NCBI RefSeq assembly: GCF_038502225.1
Contig: NC_091340.1
Location: 29,820,579 to 29,884,578 of the forward strand
Reading direction: 5' to 3'
From: Cherax quadricarinatus
Lineage: Eukaryota > Arthropoda > Malacostraca > Decapoda > Parastacidae
DNA: 64,000 nt
Positions 5,632-56,340 of this stretch are shown here, piece by piece. The first letter of the stretch is position 1; every line of letters starts with the position of its first letter. Under the pieces are notes generated by a model that saw only the letters and a program-made list of their open reading frames with translations, was not told the origin of the DNA and did no database searches. A program made the position numbers and the translations under genes.

Positions 5632-5790
5632 TTGGTAATAATGTTAGAATTACCGACAAAATGTTAGGTAAATTGACACAGGTCCAACTAATGTGACATT
5701 TTACTGGATAAAGCTCCTGGAGAGCGAAACGTCGCCACAATAAAATGTCACATTAATTGCATCTGGGTCCATTTACCTAACGTGTTTAGT
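5632..5790 (+). mobile_element. Degraded foldback of the PLE-2 tail family
   Basis: TTAGAATTACCGACAAAATG and GACACAGGTCCAACTAATG correspond to the minus-orientation tail at 22943. TAAAGCTCCTGGAGAGC, GAAACGTCGCCACAATAAA and ATGTCACATTAATTGCATC are the plus-orientation tail. The two halves therefore face each other, as in the cleaner copy at 31723-31901. The plus half keeps stem II (GCTC/GAGC) and GAAACGTC but has lost the upstream strand of stem I. Confidence 0.75.
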
Positions 5791-6244
5791 CTCGCTGCAT
5801 GTCCTCACCATTTCCGAAAAATCAAAAGGGGGAGGGAACCCAAACATTACGAGGTGGACAATGCTTCCCTTCCATGGTTGCGTGACTGAGTAAAACACTG
5901 CAGTAAGACGAGGAGGAACCACAGAGACAAGGAGGCAGACTTGCATAAGATTGCAATTAACCAAGAGGCTAGCAGAAGCTACTTTTTGCATCTGTCTTGT
6001 GGCCACACACAACTAGTGCCCATAGCTATGCCAAACTTATTGAGACTTTTTCTCTAACTACCCCACAACTGACACTTGAGTGTATCAAATTTTCCTTAAA
6101 ATAATTTAATTATATTTTTCACTTGTAAATTATAACTTTCAATCCTCTTATCGAACTTAAATATTGTCAGCTCTGGAACATGGGTAATAGTTGTGTTAAG
6201 GCTCTGTGTTTATTAGACACAAAATTATAATCAAGTTTTCACCT
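5791..6244. other. No recognised feature
   Basis: About 450 bp of mostly AT-rich single-copy-looking sequence. The short open frame on the minus strand at 5773-6012 resembles nothing I know. Confidence 0.5.
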
Positions 6245-6420
6245 AACAAGCACCTAAAGTCGGTTCCTGACCAGCCGGGCTGTGGCTCGTACGTTGGTTT
6301 GCGTGCAGCCAGCAGCAACAGCCTGGTTGATCAGGCTCTGATCCACCAGGAGGCCTGGTCACAGACCGGGCCACGGGGGCGTTGACCCCCGAAACTCTCT
6401 CCAGGTAAACTCCAGGTCAC
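6245..6420 (-). repeat. Decapod interspersed repeat with GGGGGCGTTGACCCCC hairpin
   Basis: The block runs from CCTGACCAGCCGGGCTGTGG through CCTGGTTGATCAGGC to CTCTCCAGGTAAACTCCAGG. I associate this sequence with a common decapod repeat that is often mis-annotated as short proteins (minus-strand reading WSLPGESFGG...CDQASWWIRA). Related pieces are at 51748-51800 and 53005-53085. Class unknown. Strand is that of the usual spurious peptide. Confidence 0.6.
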
Positions 6421-7160
6421 CAGCCATAACACCACTACTAACTGCCCAACTCCAGCTGATGACCCTGACGTTGCGAAGCACAGGATGATATTTGGGTCGG
6501 ATCCCCTTTCATCCAAATATTTCTCGTCTAACCATGACTGAAACCAAAGTTGTAAACACACTTCAGTTATTTAACTGTCTTCAGGGAAGGTTTCAGGCAG
6601 CGACGCTTCCAACAAGTCAGTTATATGGTGAGAGCTACCCTCGGTAGGATCTCAACTAAACACAAACTAGCATAAAATTATTTAGTTACACCTTAGTCAT
6701 CCTAATAACTTAAAGATATGTTATCCACACAAAATACTTTTGCTAGCGAAGTACTAATTTCAAATGCTTACTTTTGAAGATTCCGTAAATTCTCCTAGTC
6801 TTGGTGCTGGAGTTTCTCCTGACTATTCCCCCAATCAAGATAACATCTCAAGAAGCAAGAAAATAGTCGACAGACTATGATATAACTTCTTACTACTACT
6901 CACAAGACATGCGAACACATTCCAGGGCTCAATACGCAATGCGTATATTACAACAGAGCAAATTCTGCACAAAACAAACATTACACGCAACACAGCATTC
7001 TATACATCAGGTTTAACCACCACCTATATATTTCCATAATAGCCATCATTAAACGTTGAATACACAATGTTATCTCTCTAAAAACCTTTATTTACCCTAG
7101 TTTTAATTAATTTTACTTACTGTGTTTAAGGAATAATGAGTAATAAATAAACTTCACTCA
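6421..7160. other. No recognised feature
   Basis: AT-rich sequence with scattered stops in all frames and no repeats that I can match elsewhere in the window. Confidence 0.5.
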
Positions 7161-7171
7161 GTGAGTGATGC

Positions 7172-7473
7172 AATGTGTCGTCACGCGAGTGAGTGCAAGA
7201 GTGAGGAGTTCTGTTGTGTGGGAGTGCAAGAGTGAGGAGTTCTGTTGTGTGGGAGTGCAAGAGTGAGGAGTTCTGTTGTGTGGGAGTGCAAGAGTGAGGT
7301 GTTCTGTTGTGTGTGAGTGCAAGAGTGAGGTGTTCTGTGGTGTGTGAGTGCATGAGTGAGGTGCTCTGTTGTGTGTGAGTGAAAGAGTGAGGTGTTCTGA
7401 TGTGTGTGAGTGCAAGAGTAAGGTGTTCTGATGTGTGTGAGTGTAAGAGTGAGGTGTTCTGTTGTGTGAGTGC
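7172..7473. repeat. 31-bp minisatellite, left part, interrupted by PLE-1
   Basis: The unit GAGTGCAAGAGTGAGG followed by TGTTCTGTTGTGTGT repeats with 31-bp period. It resumes at 9421 after the inserted element, showing that the array pre-dates the insertion. Confidence 0.95.
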
Positions 7474-7484
7474 AAGCGTAATGT
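7474..7484 (+). repeat. Target-site duplication of PLE-1, left copy
   Basis: AAGCGTAATGT here is identical to 9410-9420. Both copies sit where the 31-bp array breaks off. Confidence 0.85.
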
Positions 7485-7556
7485 ATAACAAAAAAAGGCA
7501 CAATACCGTGACTGGAACGATGCACAAATAACCCGCACATAAAAGAGAGAAGCTTA

Positions 7557-7596
7557 CGACGACGTTTCGGTCCGACTTGGACCATTTACAAAGTCA
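7557..7596 (-). ncRNA. Hammerhead-like motif, PLE-1 left inverted arm
   Basis: Minus-strand order: TGAC (stem I), TTTGTAAA core, stem II GGTCC/GGACC, GAAACGTC, then GTCG closing stem I. It is the inverted copy of the motif at 9335-9374. The core is far from canonical CTGATGA, so activity is doubtful even though both stems pair. Confidence 0.4.
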
Positions 7597-7751
7597 CACT
7601 AACCAGAAGTGGAGCAGGACGGCTATATATAGGCAGGAAGAGGTGGTGGTGGTAGTAGTAGTAGTCCAAGAATGGTATATAATGCAGACAAGATGAAATT
7701 AAGACACATGCGCAACACCCGGGCATCTCGAAGTATTCCATGTAAAGATTA

Positions 7752-8799
7752 GCAAGGACCGTTATGGTGTCACTATGGGCTCTCCTCTCTCTCCGGTCCT
7801 TGCTAATCTTTACATGGAGTACTTCGAGACTGTTCCTCTTCCTACCCTCGATGTGCAACCTTCACTCTGGCTCCGCTATGTGGATGACATCTTTGCTCTG
7901 TGGCCTCATGACTCCAGTCTCTTCCAACCTTTTCTTGAAGCTCTTAATAATCTTGCCCCTTCCATTAAGTTTAAAGTTGAATGGGAATCTAATTCCTTGC
8001 TTCCTTTCCTTGATGTCCATGTCCACCGCTCAGATACAGGTTTTTCCTTTTCCGTTTACCGAAAACCTATGCACAGTGGCATGTACATTCACTACTTTTC
8101 CTATCATGCTTCCCCTGTCAAGAAAAGTGTTCTTTTCTCCCTCTTTCTCCGTGCCCTCCGCATCTGTGATCCTCAGTTCCTTCCAGCAGAAATTTCCACT
8201 CTTCATAATTCGTTTTCCCGTCTTGGCTACCCTTCCCATTTCATAGACTCTGCCCTCTCACGTGCTAAACGTAATTTCTTCTCTCCCAAACTCTCTACTC
8301 CTGGGAACTCTTCCATCCTCTGCCTTCCCTACATTTCCGGTCTTTCTAATCTCAACAATTCTCTCCGTCCCTTAGACATCAAGCTTACCTTCCGCCAGAC
8401 TAACACTCTTCGCACTAATCTCGTTCATACCTCTCCTCCCTCTACAGATGTTCCTGGTGTCTACTCTATTTCTTGCTCCTCCTGTCCTCTTCAATACTTC
8501 GGAGAAACTGGTCGATCTCTTTCTGACAGACTTAGGGAACACAAAAATAGTGTTAGGCTTGCCGACACTAACAATGTTCTTTTCTGTCACGTCAGAGATC
8601 ATAGCCATCCTATTGACTGGTCTCTGCTAAAACTGTCTTCCCTACTTCCAACTCGAACAGTCGCCGTCTAGTTGAATCCTCTCTAATGCACAACTTTCCT
8701 TGTATGAATCTGAGCCCTGGCTTCGTCTCTGTAGATGCCTTCCTCTCCCACTACATTGTAAAATGCTCCAAACTTCAGAACACCCGTGACTTAACCTGA
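7752..8799 (+). pseudogene. Penelope-like RT C-terminal half plus GIY-YIG endonuclease, one frameshift
   Basis: The frame opens in a truncated RT: MGSPLSPVLANLYMEYFE at 7775 is RT motif B and RYVDDIFAL near 7880 is the catalytic YVDD motif C. The thumb follows (about 7930-8400). The C-terminal GIY-YIG nuclease starts near 8445 with GVYSISCSSC, then YFGETGRSLSDRLREHK and CHVRDHSH; this RT to GIY-YIG order is diagnostic of Penelope-like elements. The conventional frame stops at 8671, but the family's usual end, reading SNSRRLVESSLMHNFPCMN and stopping with TGA at 8797-8799, continues in the next frame, so a one-base change occurred near 8620-8640. The first RT motifs and start codon are missing. 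The copy is non-autonomous as it stands. Confidence 0.9.
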
Positions 8800-9058: not shown

Positions 9059-9093
<35 letters not shown>

Positions 9094-9147
9094 GCTACTA
9101 CTGATGATGAAATTAAGACACATGTGCGGCGTCTGGGTGTCTTTGTT

Positions 9148-9195
9148 GTGGACGTTTCGCCATCCAGTGGCTGGCTGGATGGCGAAACGTCTACG
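9148..9195. ncRNA. Back-to-back pair of GAAACGTC hairpins
   Basis: GACGTTTCGCCATCC, then AGTGGCTGGCT, then GGATGGCGAAACGTC form a near-perfect palindrome. Outside it lie inverted copies of AAGACACATGTG, so two motif tails have fused head to head within 9100-9240. Neither retains an upstream stem I strand. Confidence 0.5.
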
Positions 9196-9334
9196 ATAGA
9201 GATGCCCGGGTGTTGCGCACGTGTCTTAATTTCATCTTGTCGGTATTATATACCGTTCTTGTACTACTACTACTACTACTACCACCATCTCTTCCTGCCT
9301 ATATATAGCCGCCCTGCTCCACTTCTGGTTAGTG

Positions 9335-9374
9335 TGACTTTGTAAATGGTCCAAGTCGGACCGAAACGTCGTCG
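9335..9374 (+). ncRNA. Hammerhead-like motif at PLE-1 3' end
   Basis: TGAC (9335-9338) can pair with GTCG (9371-9374) as stem I including one G-U; TTTGTAAA core; GGTCC/GGACC stem II; then GAAACGTC. The motif lies 35 bp before the end of the element. Confidence 0.45.
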
Positions 9375-9409
9375 TAAGCTTCATTCTTTTATGTGCGGGT
9401 TATTTGTGT

Positions 9410-12978: not shown

Positions 12979-14676
12979 TGTTGCGGCCCCTGCCAAACTA
13001 GCGGTTAAATAGTTAACCTGCCGGCCGGCAGTACCACTGGGTGCGTCATCAAACCCAATGTGGGGGCTGCTGAGCCGGCCTTAGAGCAGTAAGAGCCTGA
13101 GTGCCTCACGGTACACACCTAAGCAGTAGGTACCTGACCACCGAAGGGTACACGTCTACTGGCTTTAGTAACAGTATGTACCAGAGCGCCTCGCTGTACA
13201 CACCTAAGCAGTAGGTACCTGACCACCGAAGGGTACACGTCTACTGGCTTTAGTAACAGTATGTACCAGAGCGCCTCGCTGTACACACCTAAGCAGTAGG
13301 TACCTGACCACCGAAGGGTACACGTCTACTGGCTTTAGTAACAGTATGTACCAGAGCGCCTCGCTGTACACACCTAAGCAGTAGGTACCTGACCACCGAA
13401 GGGTACACGTCTACTGGCTTTAGTAACAGTATGTACCAGAGCGCCTCGCTGTACACACCTAAGCAGTAGGTACCTGACCACCGAAGGGTACACGTCTACT
13501 GGCTTTAGTAACAGTATGTACCAGAGCGCCTCGCTGTACACACCTAAGCAGTAGGTACCTGACCACCGAAGGGTACACGTCTACTGGCTTTAGAAATATT
13601 ATGTACCTGAGCGCCTCGCTGTACACACCTAAGCAGTAGGTACCTGACCACCGAAGGGTACACGTCTACTGGCTTTAGTAACAGTATGTACCAGAGCGCC
13701 TCGCTGTACACACCTAAGCAGTAGGTACCTGACCACCGAAGGGTACACGTCTACTGGCTTTAGTAACAGTATGTACCAGAGCGCCTCGCTGTACACACCT
13801 AAGCAGTAGGTACCTGACCACCGAAGGGTACACGTCTACTGGCTTCAACATTAAGTACCTGAACTCCTCAGGGTACACGTCTATGCAGTAGGTACCTGAC
13901 CACCGAATCGTACCTATCTACTGGCGTTAGAAGAACCGCTCACCGCAGCTCACTGAGTCTGTTGGCCTCAGTTACTTGACGGCCGCATTCAGTGAGCTTG
14001 CAGCATGGTGTTCGGCTAGCGGTGTGTCAACCGCCTTTGGAGAGGATTTACTGGACTACCGGTGATGTCTGTGGACTCACCGTCTACGTTGATCAACTGT
14101 GGGCCGGAGTCGTCAGATGCTGTTTAGTGGGACATTACATGAAGAAAAGGTTGGAGTGTTACACTGAACTGGGCCAGGACCGTAGTGTGACACTGAGGGA
14201 CGTATGATGGAGTGGAACACTGAGATATGCACAGGACCGTAGTGGAACACTGAGATGAAAAGGGTGTCGTGGGACACTGAAGATGGCCTGGTTGTAGTGT
14301 ACACTGAACAGTGTCGTGTGACTGACTTCGTGTCGTGAGAGGCAGTTGATTGTAATTTATTATTATAAAAATGTTATTTATAATTTATTGTTTTAGCATA
14401 GAGATATATATATATAGTGACAGTAGTGTCAAGAGTTGTACCCTGTGTAGGGTTATTAATTATATTTTAGTAAAATGCTGATTATAATTTATTATAGTAA
14501 CATGTACATATTATTATTATATCATAGTTCAAATACCTCTAGACCAAAGATAGTTGATTTTTATATATTAAAGATTAATTTATATTAATGTGTGTATTTA
14601 TGTATCCCGAACTCTTTATTACAAAAGGAGTAAATCTTGCTACCATCTTCTTTTAAAAATTACTTTTTTTGTAATA
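12979..14676. mobile_element. LTR-like insertion within LINE A ORF2, with 5-bp target duplication
   Basis: The insertion is flanked by GCCCT at 12974-12978 and 14677-14681. It starts TGTTGCGGCCCC and ends TTTGTAATA, close to the TGTTR...YAACA ends of a long terminal repeat with one change at the 3' end. It is GC-rich at the left, carries an 85-bp minisatellite, and is AT-rich at the right with ATATATATATA and several AATTTATTATA-like stretches. No gag, pol or second LTR is present, so a solo LTR is the simplest reading. A non-autonomous DNA element with 5-bp duplication is an alternative. Orientation cannot be fixed. Confidence 0.6.
13096..13930. repeat. 85-bp minisatellite inside the LTR-like insertion
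   Basis: About ten units of GTACCTGACCACCGAAGGGT, ACACGTCTACTGGCTTTAGT, AACAGTATGTACCAGAGCGC, CTCGCTGTACACACCTAAGC, AGTAG. Middle units are nearly identical; first and last are diverged, the usual pattern of unequal exchange. Confidence 0.95.
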
Positions 14677-19615: not shown

Positions 19616-19795
19616 ACCTGAACATTCTGAACCTGACTTTAAATACTCACGTACCTTCCACCCCAGGTAGATCTGTTTGTGACTTGAAAAAGCCCACTGT
19701 GTGGGCGAAACGTTGTCAATAAAGGATCACATTATACTGCATATGTGTTTATATTTCCATTGTGTCGGTATTTTATACCATTTATTTCCACTCTG
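19616..19795 (+). mobile_element. Hammerhead-tail element, GTGGGC family
   Basis: A 3' tail: GTAGATCTGTTTGTGACTTG, the stem-loop, CAATAAAGGATCACATTA, GCATATGTGTTTATATTTCC and GTGTCGGTATTTTATACC. A closely similar tail is at 25045-25130. Confidence 0.65.
19680..19718 (+). ncRNA. Hammerhead-like motif
   Basis: Stem I TGAC/GTCA (4 bp), core TTGAAAAA, stem II GCCCAC-TGT-GTGGGC, then GAAACGTT. Core positions that are CTGAWGA elsewhere are changed, so this copy is probably inactive even though both stems are perfect. Confidence 0.5.
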
Positions 19796-21038: not shown

Positions 21039-21113
21039 AATGAACATCAAAATGATATACAATACCGACAGGTTGTTAGGTAAGACACATATGCAACAGT
21101 TAGACAACTTTAT

Positions 21114-21154
21114 TCCGAAACGTTTCGCCTACACAGTAGGCTTCTTCAGTCGAA
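21114..21154 (-). ncRNA. Hammerhead-like motif, tandem unit 1
   Basis: Minus strand: TTCGA (stem I), CTGAAGA plus one extra A, stem II GCCTAC-TGT-GTAGGC, GAAACGTT, TCGGA (stem I, one G-U). The core matches the hammerhead CUGANGA...GAAA consensus; ACGT could form a two-strand stem III in dimers. Predicted cleavage is after the T before TCGGA. Confidence 0.6.
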
Positions 21155-21551
21155 TACAGAAAGTAGGCAGGAACAGTAGAGATGTGAAGACGATGTAATC
21201 AGTCCATCACCCTTAAAGTCGTAGAATTTGAGGTTGTCAGTCCCTCGGCCTGGAGAAGTTCAGTTCCATAGTCAGGAACTATCTGAAGAACAAGCGACAG
21301 TGCGGAGACTTAAATACTGTCGGAAGGAGAGGTGCAGGGTAGTAGTAGTAGTAGTAGTAGTAGTAGTGAGAGGCCACTGAGAGGTCATGTCCCTCTCAGA
21401 TCCAACACTTCTCACTTGAAAAGCTTGTCCAAGGTGTTTTCTGTATCAAGATGCCACGTGTTGCAGTGTCTGACAAGATGAACATCAAAATGGTATACAA
21501 TACCGACAGGTTGTTAGGTAAGACACATATGCAACAGTTAGACAACTTTAT

Positions 21552-21592
21552 TCCGAAACGTTTCGCCTACACAGTAGGCTTCTTCAGTCGAA
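21552..21592 (-). ncRNA. Hammerhead-like motif, tandem unit 2
   Basis: Identical to the motif at 21114-21154, 438 bp away. Confidence 0.6.
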
Positions 21593-21989
21593 TACAGAAA
21601 GTAGGCAGGAACAGTAGAGATGTGAAGACGATGTAATCAGTCCATCACCCTTAAAGTCGTAGAATTTGAGGTTGTCAGTCCCTCGGCCTGGAGAAGTTCA
21701 GTTCCATAGTCAGGAACTATCTGAAGAACAAGCGACAGTGCGGAGACTTAAATACTGTCGGAAGGAGAGGTGCAGGGTAGTAGTAGTAGTAGTAGTAGTA
21801 GTAGTGAGAGGCCACTGAGAGGTCATGTCCCTCTCAGATCCAACACTTCTCACTTGAAAAGCTTGTCCAAGGTGTTTTCTGTATCAAGATGCCACGTGTT
21901 GCAGTGTCTGACAAGATGAACATCAAAATGGTATACAATACCGACAGGTTGTTAGGTAAGACACATATGCAACAGTTAGACAACTTTAT

Positions 21990-22030
21990 TCCGAAACGTT
22001 TCGCCTACACAGTAGGCTTCTTCAGTCGAA
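21990..22030 (-). ncRNA. Hammerhead-like motif, tandem unit 3
   Basis: Identical to unit 1. Confidence 0.6.
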
Positions 22031-22424
22031 TACAGAAAGTAGGCAGGAACAGTAGAGATGTGAAGACGATGTAATCAGTCCATCACCCTTAAAGTCGTAG
22101 AATTTGAGGTTGTCAGTCCCTCGGCCTGGAGAAGTTCAGTTCCATAGTCAGGAACTATCTGAAGAACAAGCGACAGTGCGGAGACTTAAATACTGTCGGA
22201 AGGAGAGGTGCAGGGTAGTAGTAGTAGTAGTAGTAGTAGTGAGAGGCCACTGAGAGGTCATGTCCCTCTCAGATCCAACACTTCTCACTTGAAAAGCTTG
22301 TCCAAGGTGTTTTCTGTATCAAGATGCCACGTGTTGCAGTGTCTGACAAGATGAACATCAAAATGGTATACAATACCGACAGGTTGTTAGGTAAGACACA
22401 TATGCAATAGTTAGACAACTTTAT

Positions 22425-22465
22425 TCCGAAACGTTTCGCCTACACAGTAGGCTTCTTCAGTCGAA
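22425..22465 (-). ncRNA. Hammerhead-like motif, partial unit 4
   Basis: Identical to unit 1; the unit breaks off about 20 bp further on at the inversion junction. Confidence 0.6.
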
Positions 22466-22629
22466 TACAGAAAGTAGGCAGGAACAACCTGTCGGTATTG
22501 TATACCATTTTGATGTTCATCTTGTCAGACACTGCAACACGTGGCATCTTGATACAGAAAACACCTTGGACAAGCTTTTCAAGTGAGAAGTGTTGGATCT
22601 GAGAGGGACATGACCTCTCAGTGGCCTCT

Positions 22630-22852: not shown

Positions 22853-22893
22853 TTCGACTGAAGAAGCCTACTGTGTAGGCGAAACGTTTCGGA
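22853..22893 (+). ncRNA. Hammerhead-like motif, inverted unit
   Basis: Plus-strand copy: TTCGA 22853-22857, CTGAAGAA 22858-22865, stem II 22866-22880, GAAACGTT 22881-22888, TCGGA 22889-22893. Confidence 0.6.
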
Positions 22894-22932
22894 ATAAAGT
22901 TGTCTAACTGTTGCATATGTGTCTTACCTAAC

Positions 22933-22942
22933 AATAAGCTGT
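22933..22942 (+). repeat. Target sequence AATAAGCTGT, middle copy
   Basis: It lies exactly between the tandem hammerhead units and PLE-2; see 21024-21038 and 23826-23840. Confidence 0.75.
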
Positions 22943-23014
22943 AATAAAGTTGGTAGAATTACCGACAATATGTAAAGTAAAAGGACACAAGTGCAACTAA
23001 TGTGACATTTATTG

Positions 23015-23051
23015 TGGCAACGTTTCGCTCTCCAGGAGCTTTATCAAGCCA
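23015..23051 (-). ncRNA. Hammerhead-like motif at PLE-2 3' end
   Basis: Minus strand: TGGC/GCCA stem I (4 bp perfect), core TTGATAAA, stem II GCTC/GAGC, GAAACGTT. Relative to the tandem-unit family both stems have changed sequence but still pair. Confidence 0.5.
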
Positions 23052-23138
23052 TTACAAACAATACATGGACACAGAGGGTATATAAAGGCTCAGAGTGAGG
23101 TGAATACTAGTGAGGTACCATTTCGATGTTCACTAGTG

Positions 23139-23336: not shown

Positions 23337-23705
23337 CTATGTGATGGCAGGGTTTACTGTTTTCAGGAGGATTCTTGCTAAGACTTCGGAGATGGTGAAG
23401 CTGCCGTTGTTTTGTTTAATTGTATTCGAAACAGCGATCAGTGCTGATTCAAGGCACTTGCGTCTGCGGAAATTAGTTTCTTTGATCACTAATTGGGCGT
23501 CTCTGAATTTCATGAGATGATTGGTGGAATTTCGGTGTTGTACACAGGCGTTGTTCAGGTTATCGTTCCTACATGCGTAAATGTGTTCATTGAGGCGGGT
23601 GTCGAGGTTTCTTGCTGTTTCACCTACGTAAATCTTGTCACAGCCTCCACAGGGTATAGTGTAAACTCCTGCATTGACTGGTTCGTGGTGCTTGGATTTT
23701 GTCCT
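23337..23705 (-). pseudogene. Penelope-like GIY-YIG endonuclease, C-terminal remnant
   Basis: About 122 codons open on the minus strand, ending with TAG at 23337-23339. It reads NAGVYTIPCGGCDKIYVGET, then ARNLDTRLNEHIYACR, the GIY-YIG core with its paired cysteines and Arg/Glu-type catalytic region, followed by HRNSTNHLMKFRDAQLV and RRKCLESALIAVS, the usual tail. The RT is absent because the copy is 5'-truncated just upstream of the nuclease; there the sequence switches to the inverted 3' end. It differs enough from PLE-1 (GVYSISCSSC) to be a separate family. Confidence 0.88.
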
Positions 23706-23742
23706 GGTTTATATACCCTCTGTGTCCATGTATTGTTTGTAA

Positions 23743-23779
23743 TGGCTTGATAAAGCTCCTGGAGAGCGAAACGTTGCCA
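23743..23779 (+). ncRNA. Hammerhead-like motif, PLE-2 inverted arm
   Basis: TGGC 23743-23746, TTGATAAA, GCTCCTGGAGAGC, GAAACGTT, GCCA 23776-23779. Confidence 0.5.
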
Positions 23780-23825
23780 CAATAAATGTCACATTAGTTG
23801 CACTTGTGTCCTGTTACTTTACTTA

Positions 23826-24185: not shown

Positions 24186-24280
24186 AACAAAATATGTGAA
24201 TGGATGGATTGAGAAGGATGTGCCTGGTATGGGCCAGCAGGCCTGCTGCAGTGTTCCTCATTTCTTATGTTCTTATGTAC
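24186..24280 (+). mobile_element. LINE A family 3' end, plus orientation
   Basis: GGGCCAGCAGGCCTGCTGCA, GTGTTCCTCATTTCTTATG and TTCTTATG correspond to the inverse of the LINE A tail region (GAACACTGCAGAAGACCTAC, CATAAGAACATAAG). Confidence 0.65.
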
Positions 24281-24329: not shown

Positions 24330-24485
24330 CGATAAATGAGACAATTGTTTAACATTTGGGTATGTTTATTCTGGAAATGTTGGCCAACCAGTGGCTTCTT
24401 CAGTCCAATACAGAGAAGAATAGTGGAAGATGAGGAGTAGTTTGAGACAATCAGTCCCTCAGCCTGGAGTCAATCAGTAGATCAG
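24330..24485 (-). mobile_element. Hammerhead-tail element, degraded
   Basis: GAGACAATTGTTTAACATTT, GTATGTTTATTCTGG, AATGTTGGCCAACCAGTGGC, TTCTTCAGTCC and AATCAGTCCCTCAGCC follow the order of the other tails. The motif (24371-24406) retains CTGAAGAA and GGA/TCC stem I but has CAACATT where others have GAAACGT. Confidence 0.65.
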
Positions 24486-25044: not shown

Positions 25045-25132
25045 TGTTTGTGACTTGAAAAAGCCCAACTGTGTGGGCGAAACGTTGTCAATAAAGAATC
25101 GCAATATACTCTATTTGTGCTTATTTTTATTC
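25045..25132 (+). mobile_element. Hammerhead-tail element, GTGGGC family, short copy
   Basis: GATCTGTTTGTGACTTG, the stem-loop and CAATAAAGAATCGCAATATA parallel the copy at 19616. The motif at 25051-25090 keeps TGAC/GTCA stem I; stem II has one extra A (GCCCAACTGTGTGGGC). Confidence 0.7.
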
Positions 25133-28164: not shown

Positions 28165-28380
28165 TACAGAACTCTTCTCCAGGATGAGGGACTGATCACC
28201 TTTTACCAGACCATGGAGCTGAACTCTTCTCCAGGCTGAGGGACTGACCACCTCAAATTCTGTTCCTCCAAGGTTGATTGACTGATTTCCTCTTCTGCCT
28301 CAATATTTGACTGAAGAAGCCTACTATGTAGGCAAAACGCTTCAGCAATAAATACATCCAACTGTTGTATACATAAGTTT
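28165..28380 (+). mobile_element. Hammerhead-tail element (source of the 52-bp array)
   Basis: It runs from the last array units through CTGACCACCTCAAATTCTG, GATTGACTGATTTCCTC, the motif and CAATAAATACATCCAACTG to GTTGTATACATAAG, the same order as in the unit at 22735-22934. Confidence 0.75.
28307..28345 (+). ncRNA. Hammerhead-like motif
   Basis: TTGA/TCAG stem I, CTGAAGAA core, stem II GCCTAC-TAT-GTAGGC, then AAAACGCT. Compared with TTCGA/TCGGA of the tandem units, the third stem I pair changed C-G to T-A with pairing kept. The GAAACGT block carries two changes, so this copy is likely dead. Confidence 0.5.
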
Positions 28381-31722: not shown

Positions 31723-31901
31723 TTGTAATAAAGTTGGTAGAATTACCGACAATATGTAAAGTAAAAGGACACAAGTGCAACTAATGTGACATTTATTGTG
31801 GCAACGTTTCGCTCTCCAGGAGCTTTATCAAGCTCCTGGAGAGCGAAACGTTGCCACAATAAATGTCACATTAGTTGCACTTGTGTCCTTTTACTTTACA
31901 T
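31723..31901. mobile_element. Near-perfect palindrome of the PLE-2 tail inserted in the 36-bp array
   Basis: The left half is TGTAATAAAGTTGGTAGAAT ... GTAAAGTAAAAGGACACAAG ... GGCAACGTTTCGCTCTCC; the right half is its complement from CTCCTGGAGAGCGAAACG to CCTTTTACTTTACA, with the centre at AGGAGCTTTATCAAGCTCCT. The left half is longer by the GTTGGTAGAATTACCGAC end. TCTTCTGAGGT stands on both sides (31712-31722, 31902-31912) out of phase with the 36-bp period, which indicates an 11-bp target duplication. Stem I strands were lost at the centre, so neither hammerhead-like motif is complete. Confidence 0.85.
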
Positions 31902-33221: not shown

Positions 33222-33805
33222 GAAGTTAAGACACATGTGCAACATCTGGATATCTTTATTGTTGACATTTCGTCATCCAGTGGCTTTATCAATACAAAGG
33301 GCAGTGACAATTGCTAATGGATGTATAATCAGAGTTTGTGTAATAGATCTTTTAATGTTAGAAAGTTGAAGAAGAAGTCTGTGTCAAAGATGGGGCAGTC
33401 AACTTGGAAAATGAAGTGACGACGTCCGAGGTAAATTCTCCGTGCTCGCTGATAGACAGGACAGTCCAGTAGATTATGGCAAACTCAGACTGGAACCTGA
33501 CAATTCTCACGGGGTGGAACTGGGCACCTTTCCATGAGATACCCATGAGTGAGACGTGTGCGCCCGATGGGAAAACGGTAAAGCCGTAGTCTCCCAACCA
33601 CGACATTGATGATAAGACCAGAATCCTAAACACGACTTGATAGAATATAATACGTATTAACTCGGACCAAAGCTGTTGCCAACGGCTGCGAAGGCGGCTA
33701 GAGATTACAACAAAACTGTCTAAGAAACATGAGGGTTACGTACCGCTGACCGCACAGTCGAGTCCGTCTGCTCGTTGTTCTGATCATCCACATGACCAAG
33801 GGCCC
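33222..33805 (-). pseudogene. LINE C: RNase H and C-terminal remnant with hammerhead-like 3' tail
   Basis: Minus strand. GHVDDQNNEQTDS near 33800 looks like a decayed RNase H block (usual G-N-E-x-A-D). WQQLWSEL (about 33662-33685), IGRTRLTHGYLMERCPVP, ENCQVPV, LLDCPVYQRARRIYLGRRHF and FNFLTLKDLLHKL follow, the C-terminal region typical of I/Jockey-like LINEs, in shifting frames with at least one internal TGA. The stop lies at 33329-33331. After about 33 nt comes a hammerhead-like motif (33260-33296), then AATAAAGATATCCAGATGTT and GCACATGTGTCTTAAC ending at 33222. The tail is thus within 110 nt of a LINE coding end. Confidence 0.7.
33260..33296 (-). ncRNA. Hammerhead-like motif in LINE C 3' UTR
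   Basis: TTGATAAA core, GCCACTGGATGAC with partial stem II, GAAATGTC, then AACA against upstream TGTA. Decayed, but in register with the better copies. Confidence 0.4.
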
Positions 33806-33863
33806 AGCAAAAAAAAAGATTTGATAAATTAGACACATGTGCAACACTTGGGTATCCTTAATG

Positions 33864-33900
33864 AGAAAACGTTTCACCACACAGTGGCTTCATCCGTCCA
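33864..33900 (-). ncRNA. Hammerhead-like motif, left arm
   Basis: Minus strand: GGA/TTC stem I, CGGATGAA core, GCCACTGTGTGGT stem II, GAAACGTT. Confidence 0.45.
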
Positions 33901-34076
33901 TACAAAGGAGAATGGTGAAGAACATGAGGGGTTTGAGGTAATCAGTCCCTCAGCCTTGAGTCAATGTAATGAGTCCATTACTCTTGAAAAGAATACAGCA
34001 TATGTGCGAAGAAGTGGCTTATATACTGTATGCAGGAGAGGTGCAGCAGTTATGTTCTTCACCATCCTCCTTTGTA

Positions 34077-34115
34077 TGGACTGATGAAGCCACTCTGTGG
34101 GGCGAAACGTTCCCT
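34077..34115 (+). ncRNA. Hammerhead-like motif, right arm
   Basis: The core is canonical CTGATGA plus extra A (34081-34088), stem II GCCAC/GTGG with two extra G, GAAACGTT, then CCC opposite GGA, so only two stem I pairs remain. Confidence 0.5.
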
Positions 34116-34165
34116 CATTAAATATACCCAAGTGTTGCACAAGTCTCTAATTTATCAACTTATCT

Positions 34166-38112: not shown

Positions 38113-38195
38113 AACCAAACAAAAAACTCACCTCTAATAAGTTAACTTTTATAATTCTTGCAACACTTACCACATACAGAGTATACACAACTACT

Positions 38196-43599: not shown

Positions 43600-43760
43600 T
43601 GAAAATATGAAGGTTGAAGGACTGATTACCCCGTCTTTTTTAAATAGTTCTTCAGTCTTCCCATTATGTCCTTAAATTTGTATCGGTAAAGCCACTGAAT
43701 GGAGAAACATTTACAAATGAAGATACCCAGATGATGCACATGTGTCTGATTCTTTTCGGT
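43600..43760 (+). mobile_element. Hammerhead-tail element, degraded
   Basis: GAAGGACTGATTACC, TAAAGCCACTGAATGGAGAA, ACATTTACAAATGAAGATAC and CCAGATGATGCACATGTGTC keep the standard order. The motif (43681-43714) lacks a clear stem II. Confidence 0.6.
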
Positions 43761-44270: not shown

Positions 44271-44400
44271 GTATAATACTATCCTTTATTGTCAACGTCT
44301 CGCCCACACAGTGGGCTTTATCCAGTCACTTTTCCATCGTGTCGGGATTTTATCAGTAATCTCGCATCCTGGGGACAAAATTAACCTAAGTTGCCCGAAA
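44271..44400 (-). mobile_element. Hammerhead-tail element, GTGGGC family, short
   Basis: AGTATAATACTATCCTTTAT, GTCAACGTCTCGCCCACACA and GTGGGCTTTATCCAGTC are the inverse of the 19616 tail; GTGTCGGGATTTTATCAGTA follows. Motif at 44290-44328 with stem II GCCCAC/GTGGGC and GAGACGTT. Confidence 0.6.
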
Positions 44401-48662: not shown

Positions 48663-51600
48663 GTGTGTACTCACCTAATTGTACTCACCTAATTGTGGTT
48701 GCAGGGGTCGATACTCAGCTCCTGGCCCCGCCTCTTCACTGATCGCTACTGGATCCTCTCTCTCTCTGCTTCCTGAGCTTTGTCATACCTCTTCTTAAAA
48801 CTATGTATGGTTCCTGCCTCCACTACTTCACTTGCTAGGCTATTCCACTTGCTGACAACTCTATGACTGAAGAAATACTTCCTAACGTCCCTGTGACTCG
48901 TCTGAGTCTTCAGCTTCCAGTTGTGACCCCTTGTCCCTGTGTCCCCTCTCTGGAACATCCTATCTCTGTCCACCTTGTCTATTCCCCGCAGTATCTTGTA
49001 TGTCGTTATCATGTCTCCCCTGACCCTTCTGTCCTCCAGTGTCGTCAGTCCGATTTCCCTTAACCTTTCCTCGTACGACATTCCCTTGAGCTCTGGGACT
49101 AGCCTTGTTGCAAACCTTTGTACTTTCTCTAACTTCTTGACGTGCTTGACCAGGTGTGGGTTCCAGACTGGTGCTGCATACTCCAGTATGGGCCTAACAT
49201 ACACAGTGTACAGTGTCTTGAACGATTCCTTATTAAAGTATCGGAACGCTATTCTCAGGTTTGCCAGGCGCCCGTATGCTGCAGCGGTTATTTGGTTGAT
49301 GTGTGCCTCCGGTGATGTGCTCGGTGTTATGGTCACCCCAAGGTCTTTCTCCCTGAGTGAGGTCTGTAGTCTTTGTCCACCTAGCCTATACTCTGTCTGC
49401 GGTCTTCTTTGCCCCTCCCCAATCTTCATGACTTTGCATTTGGCTGGATTGAATTCGAGAAGCCAGTTACTGGACCACATGTCCAGCCTCTCCAGGTCTC
49501 TTTGCAGTCCTGCCTCATCCTCGTCCGATTTAATTCTTCTCATCAACTTCACGTCATCTGCGAACAGGGACACTTCAGAGTCTATTCCTTCCATCATGTC
49601 GTTCACATATATCAAAAATAGCACTGGTCCTAGAACTGACCCCTGTGGGACCCCGCTCGTAACAGGCGCCCACTGTGATACCTCTTCACGTACCATGACT
49701 CGTTGCTGCCTCCCTGTCAGGTATTCCCTTATCCATTGCAGTGCCCTTCCTTTTACGTGTGCCTGATCCTCCAGCTTCTGCACTAATCTCTTGTGGGGAA
49801 CTGTGTCAAAGGCCTTCCTGCAGTCTAGGAAAACGCAATCTACCCAACCCTCTCTCTCGTGTCTTACTTCTGTTACCTTGTCATAAAACTCCAGGAGGTT
49901 TGTGATACAAGATTTGCCTTCCATGAACCCATGCTGGTTTTCATTTATAATCTTGTTCCTTTCCAGGTGTTCGACCACTCTCCTCCTGATAATCTTCTCC
50001 ATGACTTTGCACACGATACATGTCAGAGACACAGGTCTGTAGTTTAGTGCCTCGTTTCTGTTTCTTTTCTTAAATATGGGGACTACATTAGCTGTCTTCC
50101 ATTTCTCAGGTAGTTGCCCAGTTTCAAGGGATGTGTTGAAGATTGTGGTTAGAGGCACACACAGCATCTCTGCTCCTTCTCTAAGGACCCATGGGGAGAT
50201 GTTGTCCGGTCCCATCGCCTTTGAGGTGTCAAGGTCACTTAAGAGCTTCTTCACCTCCTCCTCAGTTGTTCGTATGTCATCCAACACTTGTTGGTATATT
50301 CCCTCTTGATGTTCCCTTCTGTTCTGTCTTCCCACAGCCCTTCCTGTCTCTACTGTAAAAACTTCCTTAAATCTCCTGTTCAGCTCCTCACATACCTCCT
50401 GATCATTTCTTGTGAGTTCTCCACCTTCTGTCCTTAATCTGATCACCTGGTCTTTGACTGTTGTCTTCCTCCTGATGTGGCTATACAACAGTTTCGGGTC
50501 AGTCTTGATTCTCGATGCTATGTCATTTTCATACTGTCGCTGGGCCTCCCTCCTTACCTGTGCGTACTCATTCCTGGCTCTGCGACTTTGTTTTTGCCTC
50601 CTTACACCGTCGGGTGAACCAGGGGCTTGTTCTGGTCTTCCCGTTGTTACTGTTGCCCTTGGGAATGAACCTTTCCACTGCCTCCTTGCATTTTGTTGCT
50701 ACATATTCCATCATTTCATTTACTGGCTTTCCTGCCAGTTCTCTGTCCCACTGGACCTCCCGCAGGAAGTTCTTCAACCCTATGTAGTCCCCTCTTTTAT
50801 AGTCAGGTTTTTCCCATTCTACTCCTGTTATTCTCTCCACTTGCAGCTCTACTATGTATTCAAAGCACAGAACCACGTGGTCGCTAGCTCCTAGGGGACT
50901 CTCATACTTGATGTCCTCAATGTCTGTGCTGCCCAGGGTGAACACAAGGTCCAATCTTGCTGGTTCATCCTCCCCTCTCACTCTGGTAGTGTCCTTAACA
51001 TGTTGGTGCATGAGGTTTTCCAGCACCACGTCCAACATCCTGGCTCTCCATGTTTCGGGACCCCCATGTGGCTCCAGGTTTTCCCAGTCAATCTCCCTGT
51101 GGTTGAAATCCCCCATAACCAGCAACTTTGCTCTGCTGGAGTGAGCTCTTCTTGCCACCTCAGCAAGTGTGTCCACCATTGCTCTGTTGCTCTCTTCATA
51201 TTCCTCTCTTGGCCTCCTGCAGTTCTGTGGTGGATTATACATCACTGCAATGACCACTTTGTGTTCCCCAGACTGAAGTGTACCTGCTATGTAGTCTCTT
51301 TCTCCCGTCTCATCTATTTCTTCCATTTTCTCGAATTTCCATCTGTTTTTTACGAGCAGAGCAACCCCACCTCCCCCCCTGCCCCTTCTATCTTTCCTCA
51401 TGCTCTGCTATCCTGGTGGGAAGATTGCATCTGTTATTGTCTCCATGAGTTTTGTTTCTGTAACTGCTATGATGTCTGGGGACTTCTCATTGATTCTTTC
51501 TTGCCATTCCTCATGTTTATTCGTTAATCCATCTGCATTTGTGTACCAAACCTTCAACTTCTGTTCTAATACTGTAACTGTGGTGCGGGGGGTGGAAACA
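48663..51600 (-). mobile_element. LINE B2: near-complete CR1-like ORF2 copy
   Basis: Minus-oriented and in the same direction as B1. The 3' end has two tandem copies of TGTACTCACCTAAT (48666-48693), then GGTTGCAGGGGTCGATACTC. Body continues to about 51600; further 5' the sequence becomes G/T-rich and no ORF1 is recognisable before the (GT)n run. Confidence 0.88.
48746..51590 (-). pseudogene. LINE B2 ORF2: AP endonuclease and reverse transcriptase, two lesions
   Basis: The N-terminus reads KVWYTNADGLTNKHEEW and PDIIAVTETKLME (catalytic Glu) near 51560-51450, then TAG in place of an expected codon after IFPPG (about 51410). The frame continues from 51401: GRGGGGVALLVKN, VVIAVMYNPPQN, LLVMGDFNHREIDWENL, LGASDHVVLCFEY (Asp-His). 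Between 50568 and 50600 a frameshift moves reading into the frame 50488-48746: VVPIFKKRNRNEALNYRPVS, NENQHGFMEGKSCITNLLEF, CVFLDCRKAFDTVPHK (motif A), [20 protein letters not shown] (B), SLFADDVKLMRR (C), DLGVTITPSTSPEAH, YVRPILEYAAPVWNPHL. About 940 codons in all, normal for CR1-type ORF2. Confidence 0.9.
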
Positions 51601-52231: not shown

Positions 52232-52382
52232 CAGCTGAGGGACTGATTACCTCATCCTTTGTAAGTAGTTCTTCTGTCTTCAAACTATGTCCTAGAATAT
52301 GCATTGATGAAGCCACTGGATAGAGAAACGTCTACAATAAAGGTACCCAGATGTGGAACATGTGTCTAAATCTTCAAAGCCA
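52232..52382 (+). mobile_element. Hammerhead-tail element after (AC)n
   Basis: GCTGAGGGACTGATTACCTC, TTCTTCTGTCTTCAAAC, the motif, AATAAAGGTACCCAGATGTG and GAACATGTGTCTAAA. Motif at 52300-52336 has a TTGATGAA core, weak stem II and GAAACGTC. The preceding 52023-52231 holds no gene. Confidence 0.65.
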
Positions 52383-52433
52383 AGGTCTGCCGTCTCACAC
52401 ATACAGTAATATATTGGGTAAGTAAACAGAAAG

Positions 52434-52680: not shown

Positions 52681-52749
52681 CTTGTTTATTCGACAGTCGT
52701 CAACTACGACTTAAATTAGATTCAATATATCAGGTGTTTATACTTAGCT

Positions 52750-53004
52750 TTGGTAAGTAAGACACATGTGCAACAATCAGGCATCTTTATTCCGAAACGT
52801 TTCGCCTACACAGTAGGCTTCTTCAGTCAAGTACAGAACAGTTGGCAGGAGTAGTAGAGATGTGAAAGCGATATAATCAGTCCATCACTCTTGAAGACGT
52901 AGTTTTAAGGTGGTCAGTCCCAAAGCCTGGAGAAGAGTTTTGTTCCATAGTCTGGAACAATGTTACCAACCTCTCGGTACTGTATACCATTCTAATATTC
53001 ATAC
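52750..53004 (-). mobile_element. Hammerhead-tail element, GTAGGC family, single unit
   Basis: TAAGACACATGTGCAAC, CCGAAACGTTTCGCCTACAC, AGTAGGCTTCTTCAGTC, AGTAGAGATGTGAAAGCGAT, GTGGTCAGTCCCAAAGCCTG and GTACTGTATACCATTCTAAT track the tandem unit of 21041-22934 over about 250 bp, lacking the middle part with (TAG)n. Confidence 0.75.
52791..52831 (-). ncRNA. Hammerhead-like motif
   Basis: Minus strand: CTTGA/TCGGA stem I with G-U pairs, canonical CTGAAGA plus A, GCCTAC-TGT-GTAGGC, GAAACGTT. Confidence 0.55.
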
Positions 53005-53085: not shown

Positions 53086-53097
53086 CATCATTATTAA

Positions 53098-53345
53098 AGG
53101 TCTGTATGGCGAAGACCTGACTGGTAGAAAGGAACTAACCCTCTTACGAACATAAGAGAGGAGGAACACTGCACCAGGCCTGTTGGCCCATACTGGGCAA
53201 GTCCTTCACAAATATTCCGTTAGTGGGTTAGATTTGTGAAGGACGTGCCCAGTATAGGCCAACAGGCCTGCTGCAGTGTTCCTCCTTTCTTTGTTATTAA
53301 GAGGGTTAGTTCCTTCCTACCAGTCAAGTCTTTTCCATACCGACC
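53098..53345. mobile_element. Foldback of LINE A-type 3' ends
   Basis: Arms of about 118 bp (53098-53217 and 53230-53345) around a 13-bp spacer: GAGGAACACTGCACCAGGCC, TGTTGGCCCATACTGGGC faces GCCCAGTATAGGCCAACAGG, CCTGCTGCAGTGTTCCTCC; both run on into GGAACTAACCCTCTTA. The GGCCTGYTGGCCCATA block is the LINE A tail region. Confidence 0.7.
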
Positions 53346-53739: not shown

Positions 53740-53761
53740 CAACATATGAGAATCTTATTAA

Positions 53762-53797
53762 GGAAACGTTTCGCCACGCAGTGGCTTCATCTGTCCA
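53762..53797 (-). ncRNA. Hammerhead-like motif
   Basis: Minus strand: GGA/TCC stem I, CAGATGAA core (U4 changed to A), GCCAC-TGC-GTGGC stem II, GAAACGTT. Confidence 0.5.
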
Positions 53798-54169
53798 GTA
53801 CAAAGTAGAAATTGATAAGAAGAGGGGGAGTTTGAGGTAATCAGTCCCTCAGCCAAGAATCGATGTGTTCAGTCCATCAATCTTGTAGAAAGTGCAGCAT
53901 AGGCAAGCAAAGCAAACAAATAAGTTCAGGTAAGATCCCAATGGGATGAGCGTTGAAGACGGGATAGATGAAGAATAGCTCTGGAGAGGAGTGTTCTTAG
54001 TCTTAGAAATAGAGCTAGGGCTTAACCCAGCAGCTAAGGCGATTGTGGGACAGACTTGAGAACAGGAATAGCAGGGACTGTTGCATCGAACTTATAGTAG
54101 TTGAAGTCTTGAATCTTCAGTAGCTGGCAGCAGGCTAGGTCACATCAGAGGGTAGAACACATATGGGAA

Positions 54170-55967
54170 TTATAGGAGTAACTGAGGAGGCAGGTTAGCA
54201 TTGGAGCCATTTTCGAACTTTTTGAAGCTGCTTCTAGATAGGTGGTATAATTTAGCCTTGTTACTGAAGGTGAAACGTAGAGGCTTGATGAACTCAAGAA
54301 CTTGGGTGAGTGTGAAGTGAAGCGGTGATTCACAGACATACTTGACTGTTCCAGCACCGAGGCTTTTGTAGAGTTCAGTACAGGTCATGGTGTCAGTATT
54401 TGAAGGAGAAGTGTAGAAGGTAAGGTTTTCCCATGAGGGTTTACTGGAGTCGTAGCTATCTTCCTCTTCTGGAGTGGATTCATTGGGCGAATCTACAATG
54501 GTGGTAGCAGGTGACTGAGGGGCGACAGGAGCAGTGGTGAGATGTAATGGTTGTGTAACAGCAGGCTGGGGGACGATGGTTGAGGCAGCATGATCAACTT
54601 TGTCAGCGGTGGAAGTGGTTATAGAATTTACAGGAGCAGTTGCTTGGGCAGGAGACAGGTCTGCAGGTGCAGTAAAGTTCAGGGAGTTGGGAAGGATCTT
54701 GAGGATGTCTGCTGAAGGTGTGGAGTCCGGAAAATTGAAGGTAGGCATGTTGTTCAGACGGTTTGCTGCGTTTGCAAGGTGTGCATACACCATGCAGTAC
54801 AGCACCTTGGAGGCAGCACCGTCGGGGAATTGAGAGAGGGAGTTGCTGGGCGATGGTGGCTGTAGATCAGCGTGTAGAGTCTTGGTGGTGTCGGTTTGTG
54901 GTTTGGTTATTGAGGTGTTCTTCAGAACTTTAGTTTTCTTCAAAATTATTTCTTTCCTGAGTGGGCACTTAGCTGCAAGGGTATGATGATTACCCTTGCA
55001 GTTAAGACATGTTGGTGCTGTAGTAATGGTGCAGGATCTGAAATCGTGTCCATCATTCCCACATTTTGAACAAAACTTCTTATCCTTGATGGGACAGTCC
55101 TTGGTGGTGTGTTTATAGTAGTAGCAGGTCCTGCAGTGGGAGATGTATGTGAAACGTTCTTGTTCTATATGACTTGTGTCCTTTTACTTTACAATATGAG
55201 ATGGCCAGACCGTCAGAGAGAGTTTGGGCAGCCATGGAGATGTCTGAGAATGTAATCTTTAGCATAGATGAGGCGTTAGGGATCTTGGAGATGCTGTCTA
55301 CCGAGGCCCAGGTGTTTTGTTCCTCAATAGATGTCTTCAGTGCTTCAGTAGAGAGAGAGGTGACGATATTGTCCAGTCTTTTCACAAAGACCGAACGTTT
55401 CGACTTCAAGAATGGAGATGGGGATAGAGTGAATTGTTGTGTTTGTAGGGTCCTGATTGAAGAGTCGTCCATTAGTTTTGATGCTTCCGTGTCGTCTGTG
55501 CAGACGATAATGAAGGAGCCCTTCAGAGAGTGGATTGACGTAAATTTGACCTGCAGGCAGGTCCTAACGACGGTAGCTAAAGCTAACTTCGAGGAGTCAT
55601 TTATTACACCATTCACAGACTTGATTTTCACACGGTGCGACAGCAGTGTGAAAAGGATGTGACGTTTGTAGAATATAAATTCCCCACCCTGGCGGGGTCG
55701 AAGGGAGGCTTCTTGAGTGTAGAGCAACTGTGTAATCGGACAGAGCACGACGGACCAGGAGTGAAGAGGCCGTAGACGTGGCTTATATACTGTAGTCAGG
55801 TGAGGCGAAGCAGGAGGAGGCGGGGTCATAGTGGAACCATCCACTAGTCGAAGTAGGTCTTCGTCCGAAGATTGGACAAGTATTGAAGAATTTTTTGCAA
55901 CAGAGATTTCCATATGTTGTATAGGTGTCTCAATCTTCAAATTGTCGGTTTTCAAACCATTTATCAA
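54170..55967 (-). pseudogene. Gag-like ORF1 with three CCHC zinc knuckles, one frameshift
   Basis: Two overlapping minus-strand frames (55967-55113 and about 55165-54170) make one protein of roughly 590 residues. The first half has two RRM/PRE_C2HC-like stretches (VKIKSVNGVINDSSKLALAT, SVFVKRLDNIVTSLSTEALK). Three knuckles follow in the second frame: CRTCYYYKHTTKDC, CSKCGNDGHDFRSC and CLNCKGNHHTLAAKC. The C-terminal half is rich in Pro/Ala/Ser/Thr (residues around TAPADLSPAQATAPV) and ends QLLL. This layout is that of I/Jockey-type ORF1 nucleic-acid-binding proteins. The shift falls near 55130-55160. A 22-bp foreign insert (55172-55193) lies just upstream of the knuckles. Confidence 0.75.
55172..55193 (-). 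mobile_element. 22-bp insertion matching the PLE-2 3' terminus
   Basis: On the minus strand TGTAAAGTAAAAGGACACAA plus GT is the tail sequence near 22967 and 31756. ATATG stands on both sides (55167-55171 and 55194-55198). Confidence 0.5.
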
Positions 55968-56144
55968 ACTGACGTTAATTCTTGCCTTTGCAATTATTCG
56001 TTAAACATTTCTTGACATTAGAATCTAAGTCAGTTTAACCATTAATGACTTTCGTGAAGTTGACAAATGGGGGGATAGAGGGTAATTAGAACATTTTCGT
56101 GGCATTTGAATGCAAAGAAAATTGGATAAAGGATGAAGAACACA

Positions 56145-56340
56145 AAGGCACAATATCACGAGTGGAACAATACATAAATAACTCGCACATACCATAAAGA
56201 AGTTTAATACGACATTTTGGTCCGACTTAGACCCTTGAATAGTCCCACTGTCAATGGTGCAAGTCGGACCCAAACGTCGTCATAAGCTTCTTTCTCCTAT
56301 TTTTGGGTCATTTGTGTATTGTGTGTGTTTAAGGATGAAG
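56145..56340. mobile_element. Foldback of PLE-1-type 3' ends
   Basis: CACAAAGGCACAATATCACG, AACTCGCACATACC, TACGACATTTTGGTCCGACT (minus-oriented end) faces GCAAGTCGGACCCAAACGTC, GTCATAAGCTTCTTTCTCC, GGGTCATTTGTGTA (plus-oriented end). Both correspond to PLE-1 termini; motifs near 56210-56245 and 56252-56282 are incomplete. 55968-56144 and 56341-56456 contain nothing recognised. Confidence 0.7.

Follow-up and report, generated by a model that had tools for sequence, protein, structure and literature searches.

The genome of the decapod Cherax quadricarinatus carries a recurring RNA motif whose copies we take, with a probability of about 0.87, to be minimal type I hammerheads of several families of Penelope-like elements (PLEs), located just upstream of the point where reverse transcription would start. 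The motif was examined in a stretch of 64,000 nucleotides (assembly GCF_038502225.1, contig NC_091340.1, positions 29,820,579 to 29,884,578; hereafter the window) and in the assembled genome (3.95 Gb; 7,334 contigs). An original prediction, drawn from the letters of the window, had described a covarying hammerhead-like motif in about 25 copies. Our analysis supports that reading at the level of sequence, and also supports a point that the prediction did not make, namely that the motif copies are the ends of Penelope-like retrotransposons. The role of PLE hammerheads is termed a mystery in a passage of one review. The genome has tens of thousands of copies that use two interchangeable core pairs and so put the catalytic core to a natural mutational test, and the two ends of the well-preserved fold-backs described below seem to record where reverse transcription began.

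From 5′ to 3′ the motif consists of the first strand of stem I, a core of C or T, TGA, W, G or A, and A, an extra A, the stem II hairpin, GAA, ACGT, Y, the second strand of stem I and a tail. A search of the window for GAAACGTY yields 30 matches on both strands. Some of these are mirror matches, because the palindrome GAAACGTTTC reads on either strand, and the motif is not present at the matches at 55151 and 55401. The more restrictive pattern CTGAWGAAGCCN{4,12}GGCGAAACGTY has 7 matches versus 0.00 expected. A covariance model trained on 20 copies finds 23 places in the window (E ≤ 7.7e-4, spanning 5704-53798); the eight training rows that come from the window match by construction, being part of the training set. 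The model misses the GTCG-type copies at 7568 (-) and 9363 (+) and the second half, 9184 (+), of the pair 9158-/9184+, all three of which can be read by eye. Together these copies agree with the predicted number. Recurrence of the motif over the predicted interval 5632..56290 also holds, except that its right end was set slightly too far, since the region 55904-55971 contains only a motif-less tail. The stem I and stem II pairs predicted for the individual families are found in window copies. AATAAAG, which had been described as following the motif, is frequent there, but ATTAAA, TAATAAG and CGTAAG are seen as well.

Genome-wide, GAAACGTYN{1,6}AATAAAG has 163,637 matches versus 120 for the reversed pattern, and CTGAWGAAGN{6,16}CGAAACGTY has 119,202 versus 0. 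These controls, together with the pattern expectations, reject a chance origin of the motif. Because the copies are related, the counts do not equal independent events. High copy number is in any case no proof of ribozyme function, for which covariation between families is the better argument.

Covariation was assessed on 95 copies, representing 40 distinct sequences, that were picked by TGA, A9, the extra A, GAAACGTY, and G and C as the outermost pair of stem II, with no stem pairing demanded beyond that outermost G and C. Pairs 1-3 of stem I, pairs 3-4 of stem II and the core pair 3-8 exceed 2000 of 2000 shuffles. This does not hold for pairs 4-5 of stem I, and stem II pairs 1-2 are uninformative. 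Twenty sequences, hand-chosen to span the families rather than drawn at random, give a covariation score of 0.560 versus a shuffle mean of 0.182, and of at most 0.141 when slid. Between families, stem I changes among GGA/TCC, CGA/TCG, GTA/TAC, GAC/GTC and GGC/GCC, and stem II likewise changes on both sides. The covariation claimed for the stems is thus borne out, and extends to the core pair C3-G8.

In the hammerhead, C3 pairs with G8 (PMC3088659, in the passages cited). Four genome patterns that fix TGA, W at position 7, A9, an assumed extra A and GAAACGTY give 119,202 matches with C3G8, 50,392 with U3A8, 2,380 with U3G8 and 3,743 with C3A8, such that a Watson-Crick pair occupies positions 3-8 in 169,594 of 175,717 matches. 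Many of the 6,123 discordant matches, among those listed, resemble single changes inside a known family. The C3-G8 families TCGG and TCCT coexist in this one genome with the U3-A8 families TACA, GCCA and GTCA, and the switch between the two pairs may have been one event or a few. Retention of the 3-8 pair argues that the core is kept, beyond mere stems. The same source, as cited, reports natural U3-A8 hammerheads in 2011 and notes that ribozymes covarying at these positions were already active in vitro.

A second count was made on sampled loci with enough flank (254 matches). Dropping seven overlapping loci (L002-L008) left 214 matches, and removal of 70 mirror matches left 144, of which 128 have a hairpin. 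TGA and A9 are present in 96 of these 128 copies, all of which carry GAAAC by selection. Among the 96, the core pair is C3-G8 in 62, U3-A8 in 30 and something else in four. Outside the GTCG family, most copies have the type I core C3 U4 G5 A6 N7 G8 A9 (or its U3-A8 form) with G12 A13 A14, and stems I and II stand in type I order and covary, in agreement with the core and order that had been predicted. ACGTY supplies A15.1, U16.1 and an H17 that is C or U (all given by the choice of anchor) and permits a stem III of at most 2 bp within one molecule. The proposal that ACGU pairs between two RNAs would fit such a reduced helix III. One departure from a type I hammerhead is an unpaired base between A9 and stem II, which is A in 94 of the 96 copies and T in two (the parser assumed one extra base). 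The original prediction was right that nearly all copies have this A, but its description as non-canonical needs qualification, because chrysanthemum chlorotic mottle viroid (CChMVd) provides a precedent: its plus hammerhead has an unpaired A after A9 (PMC3705267, as cited).

Two coding pieces tie some copies to PLEs. The frame 7775-8671 (+) scores 17.3 bits for RVT_1 and 18.1 bits for GIY-YIG, both below the Pfam cut-offs, and has 1,340 homologues; the 120 listed carry PF26215, many with RVT_1 or GIY-YIG also. The PLE fragment is 63% identical to a Procambarus clarkii protein over 62% of the query and 46% identical to a Penaeus vannamei protein over 95% of the query. The minus-strand piece 23340-23783 matches Pfam GIY-YIG at 23394-23684 with 29.2 bits, against a cut-off of 22.6. 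Both pieces are flanked by outward-pointing motif copies, 7568-/9363+ and 23026-/23768+. Among 61,690 genome candidates, 132 frames like the 7775-8671 piece were scored, with open frames up to 887 amino acids; neighbouring frames lie approximately 3.03 kb apart in tandem and also form head-to-head pairs. The motif tail resembles the PLE 'tail', and the insertions show the tandem or inverted pseudo-long terminal repeats (pseudo-LTRs), short duplications and tail at one end that are typical of PLEs. Copies are found in or beside such pseudo-LTRs, 87 of 96 being linked by tail and architecture only; copies without coding sequence would by these features belong to PLEs as well. Viral contigs searched for PLE relatives yielded none.

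The arrangement of neighbouring copies is not random. One contig supplies, from its first 4.1 Mb, the 100 listed places used here; among them there are 47 neighbours within 600 bp, of which 28 are minus-then-plus (shuffle mean 11.8, maximum 22). Each outer end of such a divergent pair is a motif with its tail, and the tails have two lengths. In 17 mixed pairs, the short tail ends 42-53 nt after the G of GAAACGTY and the long tail 79-86 nt after it. In most cases the long tail additionally has GTCGG followed by a hairpin, the arms of which are family-specific and yet pair (GGTAT..ATACC, GGTTT..AAACC, GGTTC..GAACC). This second hairpin falls beyond the point where the short tail stops and before the end of the long one; it is seen after the motifs at window position 22437 (-) and at L009:865 (+).

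We examined 35 pairs. In 18 of them the duplication reaches 10 bp or more and the two ends can be classified; the remaining 17 were not counted (11 without duplication, five with unclassifiable ends and one with an 8-bp match only). One short and one long tail are present in 17 of the 18 classifiable pairs, with the short tail on the left in 11 and the long tail on the left in six. The sole exception, 31810-/31845+, sits in an 18-bp minisatellite where the duplication cannot be placed. When partners were swapped, duplications of at least 10 bp arose in 16 of 655 trials. Since the loci were mostly chosen for dense motifs or listed pairs, the frequency of pairs on contig C1 is not a genome-wide value. 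In the window, the pair 7568-/9363+ has one long and one short tail and an 11-bp duplication, AAGCGTAATGT, at 9363+ and the left end of 7568- (by eye). The fold-back 23026-/23768+ has a 10-bp candidate duplication, AATAAGCTGT, and its 23768+ end falls outside the tail-length classes. Among the listed places, four GCCA-type pairs share an identical 31-bp offset (C1:5523-5582, 4617924-4617983, 4910545-4910604 and 7411791-7411850), which points either to self-priming that recurred at the stem II palindrome or to amplification of one palindromic copy.

Divergent inverted ends with duplications of 10-16 bp could also be the palindromic ends of a DNA transposon of the foldback or miniature inverted-repeat (MITE) type, with the likeness to a hammerhead being coincidental. 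We consider this highly improbable, because the two ends of an insertion are unequal in length in nearly all classifiable pairs, PLE coding pieces lie inside two window pairs, and covariation takes in the 3-8 core pair. No search was aimed at a transposase-coding relative with such ends beyond Pfam scans, which covered ten frames of the window and a single fragment. Unequal tails are what priming of reverse transcription from both DNA ends, at two different starts, would produce. Self-priming on an antisense template, as proposed for the rotifer Penelope, predicts no regular end difference as far as can be seen. This one-short, one-long rule is a testable statement on PLE integration; as a count, it was not found in the passages covered by a limited literature search.

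The hammerhead reading suggests the following series of events. The RNA would be cut after the Y of ACGTY. The self-complementary ACGU is not long enough to give a stable stem III within one molecule, so two motifs would have to pair. They could be carried by two RNAs or by a pair of pseudo-LTRs on one tandem RNA, and the PLE protein would probably assist. Copying would begin approximately 50 or 83 nt to the 3′ side of the G in GAAACGTY. Because this start would lie just downstream of the motif, any 5′-truncated insertion extending past the intervening stretch would carry it, which would account for the high copy number. Many insertions would then be two cDNAs, one primed per DNA end, joined head to head in the middle. 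Such fold-back anatomy fits the scheme described for an Anolis PLE, in which both strands are cut and extended and there are two copying starts. It is also conceivable, if unlikely, that a hammerhead dimer is itself part of the integration machine. In that case, two template RNAs would be joined by an ACGU stem III and each would be copied at its own DNA end, the near start serving for one and the far start for the other. This would nearly always yield one short and one long tail, and late cleavage would free the templates.

Two results were set aside. A pile-up of 5′ ends at query position 103 was rejected because the query crosses the centre of its own fold-back. The lower folding energy of two copies relative to twice that of one was not used as a sign of dimerisation, because long alternative duplexes explain it.

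Several findings weigh against a cleaving PLE hammerhead. Rfam hammerhead models, the comparison proposed with the original prediction, give no match at the gathering score or at E up to 10; Rfam was therefore dropped as an identifier, and its weak matches lie mostly in simple repeats or a palindrome. Recognisable PLE coding sequence lies within 2.5 kb upstream on the same strand of only nine of 96 motif copies, a search in which the queries were relatives of one family, such that distant PLEs may be missed, and in which the ends of loci may hide some. When tails are classed more crudely by GTCGG alone, 24 of 34 pairs are mixed, six are short/short and four long/long (unpaired copies: 19 short, 18 long). 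The starts of motif-less tails show no accumulation at the predicted cut, and so there is little sign that cleaved RNA serves as template: among the 12 inspected, one (L047) starts within about a base of it and the others 7-18 nt beyond. The GTCG family, copies of which flank the longer of the two PLE pieces, has the consensus core in none of seven copies read, with cores such as TTTGTAAAT, although frames related to that piece are well preserved genome-wide. Finally, in the passages cited from the Anolis study (PMC11167929), hammerhead mutants inserted in vitro and RNA ends at the site were not found. The ribozyme may therefore act at another step, or mainly as structure.

Some of these findings make it worth considering, though we doubt it, that the fold is kept for recognition, either for binding by the PLE protein or for joining two templates through ACGU near the start of reverse transcription, with cleavage absent or incidental. 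The fixed spacing between motif and tail end, the scarcity of insertions starting at the cut site, the normal insertion of the Anolis mutants and the absence of RNA-seq ends at their cut would all suit such a role, as would the GTCG family, which retains both stems and GAAACGTC but not the core. A binding hairpin, however, need not keep TGA and A9, as three quarters of the hairpin-bearing copies do, nor does it need the Watson-Crick pair at 3-8 that covaries here. The Anolis motif moreover cleaves in the presence of protein, C3G/G8C double mutants are partly rescued, and a template shortened to +20, inside the motif, is still functional (PMC11167929, as cited).

Some motif copies occur in tandem units. 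The spacing is 438 bp in the window and 421, 420, 416 and 378 bp in listed genome places, and published animal type I hammerhead repeats likewise form tandem units of 150-450 bp (PMC7229834, as cited). Copies without coding sequence could on these grounds be an independent, retrozyme-like element, whose units of 380-440 bp arise via circular RNA and borrow the PLE machinery. This seems quite improbable to us, because units of this kind carry a tail of the PLE type and occur as fold-backs in which one finds short as well as long ends, and because their hammerhead is minimal, unlike the canonical retrozyme hammerhead with loop contacts described in that source. On contig C1, motif arrays at 4624655-4626783, 66719694-66720564 and 4100373-4101157 keep constant spacings of 421, 420 and 378 bp, and the first of them turns head to head. 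Among 27 partial matches to the 438-bp unit that reach the motif, nine start at unit positions 283-293, which is 34-44 bp downstream of a TATTTAAG box at unit position 249, and 18 are scattered; the clustered starts hint weakly that copying ran as far as a transcript's 5′ end.

The PLE hammerhead reading places the motif near several known systems, which we compare as they are described in the cited passages. PLE hammerheads, the missing helix III and the proposed action as dimers are already published (Cervera & de la Peña 2014; Lünse, Weinberg & Breaker 2017; described in PMC7761336, PMC6155905 and PMC7229834). Like those minimal hammerheads, the motif follows the type I order, has a helix III that is missing or reduced, shows no tertiary loop contacts, and occurs in thousands of dispersed copies as well as within PLE pseudo-LTRs. 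It differs from them, as described there, in its regular extra A after A9 and in the presence of C3-G8 and U3-A8 cores in one genome. The precedents for U3-A8 (PMC3088659) and for the extra A (PMC3705267) are other hammerheads and are not combined there. In the Poseidon PLE of Anolis, whose PAc hammerhead cleaves only with the PLE protein, that protein acts on both strands by cutting and extending them, and two adjacent internal RNA sites at which copying begins mark the limits of the 'tail' (PMC11167929). Thus, both systems have a hammerhead next to the tail, two starts of reverse transcription and use of both strands. In vitro, however, the Anolis start is alike on both strands, whereas here the two ends of an insertion mostly differ. 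Also, the Anolis reading frame begins inside the motif, whereas in the TCCT family here the ATG of CTGATGA opens 11 codons that end in AATAAAG.

For the rotifer Adineta vaga, head-to-head inverted pseudo-LTRs of which one bears a 31-bp tail are likewise already published, and its Penelope families have duplications of 8-10 bp; inverted structures there are described from few copies and are explained by self-priming on an antisense template (PMC3846280). Metazoan retrozymes are similar in forming tandem units with type I hammerheads and coexist with PLEs in the animals analysed (PMC7229834). They have canonical hammerheads and circular RNAs, whereas the present motif is minimal.

Table. Motif copies, PLE coding fragments and associated repeats in the window.
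Feature	Position	Strand	Details and basis
Hammerhead motif, TCGG family	22853..22893	+	stem I TTCGA/TCGGA, core CTGAAGA+A, stem II GCCTAC/GTAGGC, GAA-ACGT-T; 49.0 bits, training row
Short tail 3′ of TCGG motif	22894..22934	+	AATAAAG ... GTTGCATATGTGTCTTACC; tail reading
Tandem array, 438-bp unit, 3.3 copies	21040..22486	-	without recognisable PLE coding sequence; repeat search
Motifs within 438-bp-unit array	21114-21154, 21552-21592, 21990-22030, 22425-22465	-	covariance model
Motif, GCCA family	23014..23052	-	core TTGATAA+A (U3-A8), long tail on left; covariance model, tail reading
PLE coding fragment with GIY-YIG domain	23340..23783	-	inside fold-back 23026-/23768+; tblastn best E 1e-23, Pfam
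Motif, GCCA family	23742..23780	+	other end of fold-back 23026-/23768+; covariance model
Motif-like copy, GTCG family	7556..7597	-	stem I GAC/GTC, stem II GGTCC/GGACC; core TTTGTAAAT departs from the consensus; long tail on left
PLE coding fragment	7703..8781	+	RVT_1 end and GIY-YIG start, both under Pfam cut-offs; 70% identical to P0001
Motif-like copy, GTCG family	9334..9375	+	short tail; read by eye
Nested fold-back, TACA family	9101..9234	.	motif remnants 9158- and 9184+
Head-to-head pair, GCCA family	31801..31852	.	31810-/31845+; covariance model
Motif, TCCT-like family	33863..33901	-	core CGGATGA+A, end of fold-back 33875-/34104+; covariance model
Motif, TCCT-like family	34076..34116	+	core CTGATGA+A, other end of fold-back 33875-/34104+; covariance model, pattern
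Motif, GTCA family	19679..19719	+	core TTGAAAA+A (U3-A8), long tail; covariance model
Motif, GTCA family	25050..25091	+	covariance model
Motif, TCGG family	52791..52831	-	covariance model, pattern
Motif, TCCT family	53760..53798	-	core CAGATGA+A; covariance model
Decayed motif, GCCA-like family	5704..5738	+	covariance model
Decayed motif	24371..24408	-	covariance model, 34.0 bits
Decayed motif	28306..28346	+	covariance model, 32.3 bits
Decayed motif	33259..33297	-	covariance model, 28.7 bits
Decayed motif	43678..43716	+	covariance model, 23.7 bits
Decayed motif	44289..44329	-	covariance model, 30.2 bits
Decayed motif, TACA family	52299..52337	+	covariance model, GAAACGTY match

Other repeats are present in the window. 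At 14653-17717 (-), an endonuclease/reverse transcriptase frame adjoins a frame resembling a GDSL lipase, perhaps a long interspersed nuclear element (LINE) with an ORF1 of esterase type. Additional reverse transcriptase or endonuclease pieces lie at 45432-46211 and 50568-51401. Very large minisatellites, inside which several long open frames fall, occupy 57435-63998 (16-bp unit), 38195-40632 (17 bp), 36419-38110 (27 bp), 28381-30158 (24 bp) and 2642-5626 (40 bp). A palindrome at 53175-53269 gives a weak mir-1271 match, and a GGCC-rich stretch lies near 24220-24280 (GGGCCAGCAGGCCTG...TTCTTATGTTCTTATG near 24220), with similar sequence in the flanks of loci L009 and L025; these are possibly another short interspersed repeat.

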